From Bacteroidales bacterium (GTDB lineage Bacteria > Bacteroidota > Bacteroidia > Bacteroidales > JAADJA01), in assembly GCA_016783885.1 (NCBI GenBank), contig JADHVR010000029.1, positions 1 through 43,001 on the forward strand: DNA of 43,001 nt, written 5' to 3'. Position numbers and translations under genes: made by a program. Position 1 is the stretch's first letter; every line of letters begins with the position of its first letter. Below are positions 31,175 through 32,772 of the stretch, piece after piece. The notes under the pieces are model-generated. The model was not told the DNA's origin and did no database searches. It saw only the letters and a list, made by a program, of their open reading frames with translations.

Positions 31175-31365
31175 TGCATTGAATATTTACTGGTTTATTA
31201 TCTATAATTCTGAAATAAGATATCTTCTGGTTTATGTAGAGGCTTTAATTATTCAACGGTTTTTTGAAATATTTGCTTGCCTCCCTGAATGGAATAAAAA
31301 GTTTTAAAGATATAGATGTAAATAGAAATAAATGATATTACGATAAAAAAAGTATAAAAAATTTC

Positions 31366-31392
31366 ACTTATAAGTAAATTTTAGTATTTTTG
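31366..31392 (+). promoter_or_regulatory. Promoter and palindromic operator of the TAC module
   Basis: A perfect ten-base palindrome ACTTATAAGT (31366-31375) lies ten bases before TATTTTTG (31385-31392), which fits the TAnnTTTG -7 consensus. The toxin ATG follows 15 bases later. A palindrome just before the -7 box is where an Xre-type antitoxin would bind to repress its own operon; that role is inference. Confidence 0.5.
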
Positions 31393-31407
31393 CCAACTCT
31401 ACATTAG

Positions 31408-31902
31408 ATGAAATACAAAATTGTAAAACTAACCAAATTTAGCGGGAATGAGGCAACCATCTATTCTATTTACATCTTTGACAAGAAGAAAACACTTTTC
31501 GAACTATTTCTCGAAGAAAACAAAATTTCATATAAAAGTGAACTAATTAGCATTTTTAATCGTTTAAAAGTAATAGGACACGAAACTGGGGCAAGAGAAA
31601 ACTTTTTCAAAATACATGAAGGAGAACTTGGTGACGGTCTTTCTGCCCTATTTGATAGACCTGATAAAAAATTACGACTTTATTGCATCAAATATGGTTC
31701 TTTGATATTAATTGCAGGAGGTGGTGGACCTAAAAAATCCCAAACATTTCAGGAAGATGAAAAACTTAAACGGGAAAATTTTTTCCTACGTAAAGTAGTA
31801 AAAGATATTAAAAATAAAATGGAGTTCGGTGATATTGAAATTTCTAAGGATGGAACCGAATTTTTAGGAAACTTAGAATTTACAGACGATGAAAAAAATT
31901 AA
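31408..31902 (+). CDS. Putative RelE/HigB-like toxin of a toxin-antitoxin-chaperone module
   Basis: The 164-residue protein is the first gene of a three-gene overlapping operon. The core at about 74-131 reads like a RelE/HigB-fold toxin: GDGLSALFDRPDKKLRLYC, then KYGSLILIAGGGGPKKSQTF, then a charged helix EDEKLKRENFFLRKVVKDI. In this family the LRLY strand, the glycine turn and the KK-x-T strand form the mRNA-cleaving face; here the GGGGPKKSQ loop would hold the basic residues. The N-terminal 70 residues and the C-terminal tail are longer than in classic HigB. I cannot place it in a named subfamily, so ribosome-dependent RNase activity is inference. It overlaps the antitoxin gene by 14 bases. 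Confidence 0.7.
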   Translation: MKYKIVKLTKFSGNEATIYSIYIFDKKKTLFELFLEENKISYKSELISIFNRLKVIGHETGARENFFKIHEGELGDGLSALFDRPDKKLRLYCIKYGSLILIAGGGGPKKSQTFQEDEKLKRENFFLRKVVKDIKNKMEFGDIEISKDGTEFLGNLEFTDDEKN

Positions 31903-32311
31903 GAGAAAAGCAGAATTATATTCAAGCGATTTGATTGACCAATTTATCAATGAAATAGCGCCTGAAGAATATGAAAGAACAAAAAACAAAATGCTTTTGG
32001 CATCCAAAATAGATGATGCCTTAAAAGCCAAAGGCTGGAAAAAGAAAGACCTGGCAGAAGCATTAAACAAACGCTCTTCAGAAATTACTAAATGGGTGAG
32101 TGGCACACATAATTTCACAGCAAACACACTTTGGACCATTGAAAAAGTCCTCGGTATTGAATTAATCAGTTTATCAGAAAAAAAGACTGAAAAAGTGGTT
32201 AATTATTACTTTTCTGCCACCCAAAAAATTGACAAAGAATATTCAAGCACTAAAGTAATGCATGACTATGATGAGCTAATACCATTATTATCAAATAAAT
32301 TTGAAGTATGA
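31889..32311 (+). CDS. HigA-like Xre-family antitoxin with C-terminal extension
   Basis: The 140-residue protein has a helix-turn-helix of the Xre/HTH_3 type at about 40-92: IDDALKAKGWKKKDLAEALN, KRSSEITKWVSGTHNFTANT, LWTIEKVLGIELI. It would neutralise the upstream toxin and bind the operon operator. The N-terminal helical arm (1-38) is typical of HigA proteins in which the toxin gene comes first. After the HTH there are about 45 further residues (VVNYYFSATQKIDKEYSSTK, then VMHDYDELIPLLSNKFEV), a hydrophobic, aromatic-rich tail. In the Mycobacterium tuberculosis HigB1-HigA1-Rv1957 system such a tail is the chaperone-addiction segment, and the position here is the same. The stop overlaps the chaperone start (ATGA). 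Confidence 0.85.
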   Translation: MKKIKRKAELYSSDLIDQFINEIAPEEYERTKNKMLLASKIDDALKAKGWKKKDLAEALNKRSSEITKWVSGTHNFTANTLWTIEKVLGIELISLSEKKTEKVVNYYFSATQKIDKEYSSTKVMHDYDELIPLLSNKFEV

Positions 32312-32772
32312 ATAAAGTTAGTAATAAAAAACAGATTCCTTTCCAAATAAAGAATATCGAAATTCTCGACATCAATTTGAATTTTCCCGGACAGATTGTT
32401 AAGGAAATTAAAACATATCACTATAATCTAAATATTCAGCATCGAATTAATGAAAATAACCGCCTCATTTTCGTCGATACCTCAATTGAAGTTCTTCATC
32501 AGGATAAAAAAACGAAGATGGGTTTTTTAAAGGTAACATGTGTTTATTTCGTAGAAAATCTACTGGACTTTAAATCTTCTGGCGATAATAAATTATTTGA
32601 TCTACCTGATAATTTTGTAAACACAATTAATACCATTTCCATTTCAACAACACGAGGAATAATGTTTTCCCAATTCAGGGGAACCTATCTCCATAACGCA
32701 ATTCTACCCATTATTGATCCTAAAGGATTTAAAGCAGATAACCAACCACTGCCCTCAAGCTTCCCGGAATAA
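32308..32772 (+). CDS. SecB-like chaperone of the toxin-antitoxin-chaperone module
   Basis: The 154-residue protein has a SecB-type fold pattern: beta strands NIEILDINLNFP and HYNLNIQHRI, a strand with KMGFLKVTCVYFVENLLDF, and the C-terminal hallmark ISISTTRGIMFSQFRGTYLH followed by NAILPIIDPKGF (about 110-141), which parallels the RG-x-L/F...GT-x(2)-N...LP-x-D segment of SecB and SecB-like chaperones. Bacteroidota generally lack a canonical SecB beside export genes, and the position as third gene in a TA operon with ATGA coupling points to a TA-dedicated chaperone that binds the antitoxin tail and protects it from aggregation and proteolysis. The 3' end overlaps the remnant of a diacylglycerol-kinase-like gene on the other strand. 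Confidence 0.82.
   Translation: MNKVSNKKQIPFQIKNIEILDINLNFPGQIVKEIKTYHYNLNIQHRINENNRLIFVDTSIEVLHQDKKTKMGFLKVTCVYFVENLLDFKSSGDNKLFDLPDNFVNTINTISISTTRGIMFSQFRGTYLHNAILPIIDPKGFKADNQPLPSSFPE

Follow-up and report, generated by a model that had tools for sequence, protein, structure and literature searches.

Three overlapping genes in the window (the whole 43,001-nucleotide stretch of Bacteroidales DNA that was analysed) raise the question of whether they form a toxin-antitoxin-chaperone (TAC) operon and, if so, what sets it off. The sequence-only reading had taken 31366-32772 for a TAC module, and this is supported by the gene order, by the SecB fold and homology of the third protein and by the remote HigB homology of the first. 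The trio is very probably a chaperone-dependent TAC operon of a divergent Bacteroidota branch, most likely triggered by phage. The features are collected in Table 1.

Table 1. Features of the trio and its upstream region (window coordinates).
Feature	Position	Strand	Remarks
Operator palindrome TTTCACTTATAAGTGAAA	31362-31379	.	2 mismatches in the window; positions -46 to -29 relative to the toxin start codon
Palindrome core ACTTATAAGT	31366-31375		within the operator; first base is the start of the earlier interval (31366)
Possible Bacteroidota -7 box TATTTTTG	31385-31392	+	weakly indicated
Toxin ORF	31408-31902	+	164 aa; remote Gp49/HigB (RelE superfamily) relative; PADLOC PDC-M64B
Gp49/HigB-like core of the toxin	31468-31815	+	residues 21-136; invariant R90 and K109
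Xre-type antitoxin ORF	31889-32311	+	140 aa; PF01381 (HTH_3) and PDC-M64C matches
Antitoxin C-terminal tail, putative chaperone-addiction (ChAD) segment	32165-32308	+	residues 93-140
SecB-like chaperone ORF	32308-32772	+	154 aa; third gene of the trio

The ORF coordinates agree with the earlier description of three plus-strand genes overlapping by 14 and 4 bases. The order toxin, antitoxin, chaperone, likewise proposed before, was found again in relatives with less than 20% identity, and all three proteins matched PADLOC models of the candidate system PDC-M64 (toxin E 2.3e-41, antitoxin E 7e-28, chaperone E 1.5e-15); thus, the trio is beyond a chance arrangement. With the window counted in, 60 of 73 non-redundant pairs have adjacent genes for a toxin, an antitoxin and a SecB-like chaperone in one operon: 56 with a chaperone of the window type, 3 with one of the Pfam SecB type and 1 with an antitoxin-chaperone fusion, while the remaining 13 have no chaperone. 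L119-L122, L124 and L125-L149, which had been fetched for SecB or Gp49, are left out of this count. Among the first 80 loci, 7 yielded no toxin ORF (L003, L006, L009, L012, L015, L016 and L055). L003:1282-1911 (209 aa) and L075:1036-1911 (291 aa) each encode an antitoxin-chaperone fusion as a single ORF.

The SecB fold by which the third component of TAC modules is recognised was found in the third protein, which aligns with M. tuberculosis Rv1957 over 118 residues at 8% identity (VIA-align). Profile comparison of the chaperone family with SecB gave E 1.3e-8, against E 0.33 and 0.68 for unrelated-profile controls, and fold and profile homology together bear out the former assignment of this protein as SecB-like; with the three operon-borne SecB proteins alone the match was weak (E 0.0028, probability 11). 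In three relatives, the same gene slot is filled by a protein above the Pfam SecB cut-off. Searched as a single sequence, the window chaperone had no trustworthy match in Pfam or NCBIfam, and the PDB sequence search was too weak to classify it. The family profile reached SecB in the PDB at E 0.6 only, and Pfam reported SecB for 3 of 53 family members (best 0.02). A profile match to an ADP-ribosyltransferase fragment (PDB, E 0.016) was regarded as chance.

For the first protein, the toxin family was compared by profile with 22 Gp49-type toxins (20 from a PF05973 search plus those of L121 and L124), resulting in an alignment of 104 columns with E 2.3e-6 and probability 89; the 12 closest toxins alone matched Gp49 weakly (E 0.016). 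The protein had been called RelE/HigB-like, and by the family-wide comparison it is a remote relative of HigB. It was also fairly described as carrying long N- and C-terminal additions, since the aligned core leaves out residues 1-20 and 137-164. R90 and K109 coincide in the profile alignment with the invariant Arg and Lys of Gp49 and are kept in 72 of the 72 collected toxins having a letter at those positions. In M. tuberculosis HigB, R77 and K95 are the proposed catalytic residues, and replacing them inhibits toxicity (PMC9098466). R90 and K109 would correspond to these two positions, and the most likely activity of the toxin is a HigB-like, ribosome-dependent cleavage of mRNA. Single-sequence searches were less informative: the window toxin has no match above the Pfam Gp49 (PF05973) cut-off, 46 family members put to Pfam matched no toxin family (Gp49 is absent from the 14 families listed), and no trustworthy match was obtained in NCBIfam by single sequence or in PDB sequences by single sequence or profile. 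Its PADLOC matches are confined to PDC-M64. A weak NCBIfam match to EreB (E 0.0059) was regarded as chance. The window genome also contains a match to a Gp49-type toxin gene with an internal TGA (L144; G000:C22:42582-42779).

The second gene, formerly read as an Xre antitoxin, is confirmed as such by its PDC-M64C match and by an HTH_3 domain at residues 43-92 (PF01381, E 8.9e-9); its NCBIfam matches (such as Wmk) were regarded as reflecting a common HTH. The HTH is followed by a tail of 48 residues. The antitoxins of described TACs carry a C-terminal extension to which the chaperone binds and which chaperone-independent antitoxins lack (PMC5105189, PMC6377645). The same distinction was found here at the level of sequence: the tail measures 31-85 aa in all 56 loci with a window-type chaperone and 31-52 aa in 3 of 3 loci with Pfam-type SecB, compared to 24 aa or less in 9 of the 13 chaperone-less antitoxins (one of them, L070, interrupted). 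The other 4 of these 13 have long tails, of which those of L032 and L035 look low-complexity. Tail length is associated with chaperone presence (Mann-Whitney p 4.8e-6, kinship not corrected for). On a toxin tree of 71 of the 73 rows, drawn without L070, whose antitoxin is interrupted, and L075, a fusion whose toxin is partial, 10 changes are needed to account for chaperone absence, and well-supported branches force 6 of these. Of the 6 independent pairs on this tree, 3-4 show the tail tracking the chaperone and none shows the opposite (sign test p 0.125), which is short of significance because such pairs are too few. By analogy with the described modules, the tail probably confers dependence on the SecB-like chaperone.

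A promoter-operator had been noted in front of the trio, and a conserved 18-bp palindrome is located there, which is perfect in L020 and L021. Of the 27 loci with a S[EV]IxKW recognition helix in the antitoxin, 23 have TTTCACTTATAAGTGAAA ahead of the toxin when up to 5 mismatches are allowed (shuffles predict 0.9), compared with 4 of the 45 loci lacking this helix; the helix class was widened after the first result, a stricter one having given 18 of 23. L061 was left out for its short upstream region, so that 72 of the 73 loci were counted. In a second antitoxin group, the palindrome GTTTAGTTATAACTAAAC is found 21-23 bases before the toxin start in 6 of 7 loci (0.2 expected), and it also occurs in other groups (7 of 27, 1.2 expected; 4 of 38, 0.8 expected). 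Both palindromes, which have a core in common, and the helix classes were derived from the same loci on which they were counted. Because operator and recognition helix co-vary, the antitoxin may well repress its own operon via the palindrome at 31362-31379. The Bacteroidota -7 promoter consensus is TAnnTTTG. On its plus strand, the window has 32 occurrences of this pattern; at the place of the possible box, L079, the nearest relative, reads TATTTTTA.

With the window's own genome included in every count, 17 genomes out of 149 related ones have a match to the window chaperone. Among 295 genomes of the class, 29 match the PADLOC chaperone model and 31 the toxin alignment, and across the phylum 39 of 296 genomes match the PADLOC toxin model, some of them weakly. 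The chaperone is missing from all 16 listed genomes of the same genus, and this patchy presence suggests that the operon moves horizontally. L079, a Bacteroidales MAG, is closest (toxin 71%, chaperone 75% identical). Among phage records none matched the toxin, among plasmid records one did so weakly, and viral contigs returned nothing for the single window toxin, the chaperone profiles or two further toxin groups. Six near-identical, prophage-like IMG/VR contigs (L081:5959-6788 and L082-L086) contain a chaperone-free toxin relative with a short-tailed antitoxin of 98 aa and, as seen in L081, a DUF2442 ORF. They adjoin ORFs which by eye resemble phage tail genes. The toxin frame of L082 contains a stop, and those of L085 and L086 seem shortened. 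SecB-like genes were also seen in other company. In two genomes (L119:888-1887 and L120:888-1872), a Pfam-positive one stands directly 5' of a gene whose product, 188-189 aa long, has no Pfam match; the two may form a further SecB-linked system, the partner being of an undescribed kind. L122:1462-2706 encodes a HEPN protein (PF05168, E 3.4e-8), a 128-aa ORF without matches and then a SecB-like protein, a possible HEPN-toxin TAC.

The surroundings of the operon were surveyed in 20 relatives, picked for long contigs and not at random. ORFs with DNA methyltransferase motifs were found within 8 kb in 8 of 20 (one doubtful; 217 ORFs), and in none of the 20 control stretches taken from these contigs (249 ORFs; Fisher one-sided p 0.0016; 0.0042 if 7 of 20). 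Five of five such ORFs put to Pfam are N6 or Eco57I-type DNA methylases. PADLOC was run on 216 case and 216 control proteins, whereby 1 of 217 case and 33 of 249 control ORFs remained unscanned (L189 and parts of L180, L181 and L188 on the control side). At E ≤ 1e-15, 277 and 156 models were matched in two case batches versus 55 and 5 in the control batches, these being counts of models, not genes. Type I methylase and specificity subunits lead among the case families; among the control families it is mad3 (4 and 3 proteins), and HEC-01, HEC-06 and others also matched in controls. Since models of one family overlap and the controls are not empty, the motif count was relied on. A survey of the trio in defence islands had been suggested before. 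Relatives cluster with DNA methyltransferase genes, and around the window copy a defence island was looked for and not found: 0 of 10 scanned flanking proteins match PADLOC at E 1e-5, and the neighbours are an FtsX/MacB-type permease, two glycosyltransferases, a MatE transporter and a GTP cyclohydrolase.

In the proposed mechanism, the Xre antitoxin would bind the toxin and repress the operon through the palindrome, and the SecB-like chaperone would shield the antitoxin from aggregation and proteolysis, as in the M. tuberculosis TAC. Something, most likely a phage structural protein, would then occupy the chaperone so that the antitoxin is lost; the freed toxin would stop translation, and infection and growth would end together. 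Given the analogy with described TACs and the neighbourhoods of the relatives, a role in phage defence is the probable one, held with some reserve. Alternatively, overloaded export could occupy the chaperone and free the toxin, in which case the same TAC would serve general or export stress. Pfam finds no SecB in the window genome (89.65% complete), so that export might be helped by the TAC chaperone as well; on overexpression, such chaperones from several bacteria can stand in for E. coli SecB (PMC5105189); and the window copy lies outside a defence island, judged by the ten scanned proteins. The clustering of relatives with DNA methyltransferase genes, the patchy occurrence with no chaperone match among the 16 same-genus genomes, and the action of CmdTAC, HigBAC and MqsRAC against phage (PMC11618068, PMC11980606, PMC9519451) argue against such a stress role, which is considered rather unlikely.

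Two further explanations concern the parts of the operon. The pair could be an ordinary self-maintaining HigBA-type system whose chaperone only helps folding and senses nothing, as chaperone-less pairs of the same family do exist (13 of 73), one kind of them in prophage-like contigs; but a SecB-like chaperone is kept in the same slot in 60 of 73 pairs, once as a fusion, and antitoxin tail length tracks it, which makes this improbable. It is much less probable still that the first protein is a regulator or enzyme which merely shares an operon with a SecB-like protein. The toxin family's want of a credible Pfam, NCBIfam or PDB sequence match would suit that idea, whereas the Gp49/HigB alignment with its invariant Arg and Lys, an adjoining Xre gene in 112 of 112 toxin-bearing loci (several being the same place fetched twice) and the Gp49-HigBA-SecB operons L121 and L124 in the same phylum speak for a toxin. 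Going beyond a phage-triggered TAC, the module could rank among the chief phage-sensing TACs in Bacteroidota, with the SecB-like chaperone as an exchangeable sensor, and the chaperone-free prophage-like copy might be a phage-borne antidote against host TACs or serve superinfection exclusion. This is a speculative proposal, unlikely as a whole, and is put forward because the same pair occurs with two SecB types, fused and without chaperone, this last state requiring up to ten changes on the toxin tree.

The TAC kind as such and the candidate label PDC-M64 were already known. In the articles consulted, TAC modules were worked out with HigBA, MqsRA, HicAB and CmdTA pairs, and PMC5105189 covers tests of HigBA, HicAB and MqsRA TACs. 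This branch differs in its toxin and chaperone families, both below Pfam thresholds, and in a natural series of operons whose chaperone is swapped, fused or missing; no description of this Bacteroidota branch was found in the openly accessible literature searched. The branch is matched in roughly a tenth of the sampled Bacteroidota genomes, and some TAC members of the same kind defend bacteria against phages. With chaperone-bearing, chaperone-swapped, fused and chaperone-free operons at hand, it can be asked how a pair gains or loses chaperone addiction and whether the chaperone is a phage sensor.

Among known systems, PDC-M64 is matched by all three proteins, the toxin best by sub-type B and antitoxin and chaperone by C, so the trio spans sub-types; the PADLOC output gives no description of PDC-M64, and the name was not found in the literature searched. 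HigB1-HigA1-Rv1957 of M. tuberculosis is distant: the window chaperone shares just the 8% identity given above, and the window toxin falls below the Pfam Gp49 cut-off. MqsRAC, which protects E. coli against T2 (PMC9519451), has the TAC architecture in common with the trio but differs in its toxin family, MqsR, which was matched by 0 of 46 window-family toxins in Pfam. CmdTAC is likewise tripartite with a SecB-like third component, CmdC, through which a capsid protein is sensed; CmdT is an mRNA ADP-ribosyltransferase and CmdA has been described as two helices and an unstructured C-terminal domain (PMC11618068), whereas the window toxin aligns with HigB and the window antitoxin carries an HTH. 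A yardstick within the phylum is given by L121:694-1926 and L124:751-1979, operons of a Gp49-HigB, an Xre antitoxin and a Pfam SecB. Their chaperones exceed the Pfam SecB cut-off and their toxins belong to the Gp49 profile, while the window proteins match neither Pfam family. These two operons and E. coli HigBAC have the order toxin-antitoxin-SecB as in the window, with remotely homologous toxins, and in HigBAC the lambda major tail protein disrupts the contact between antitoxin and chaperone, by which HigB is activated (PMC11980606).
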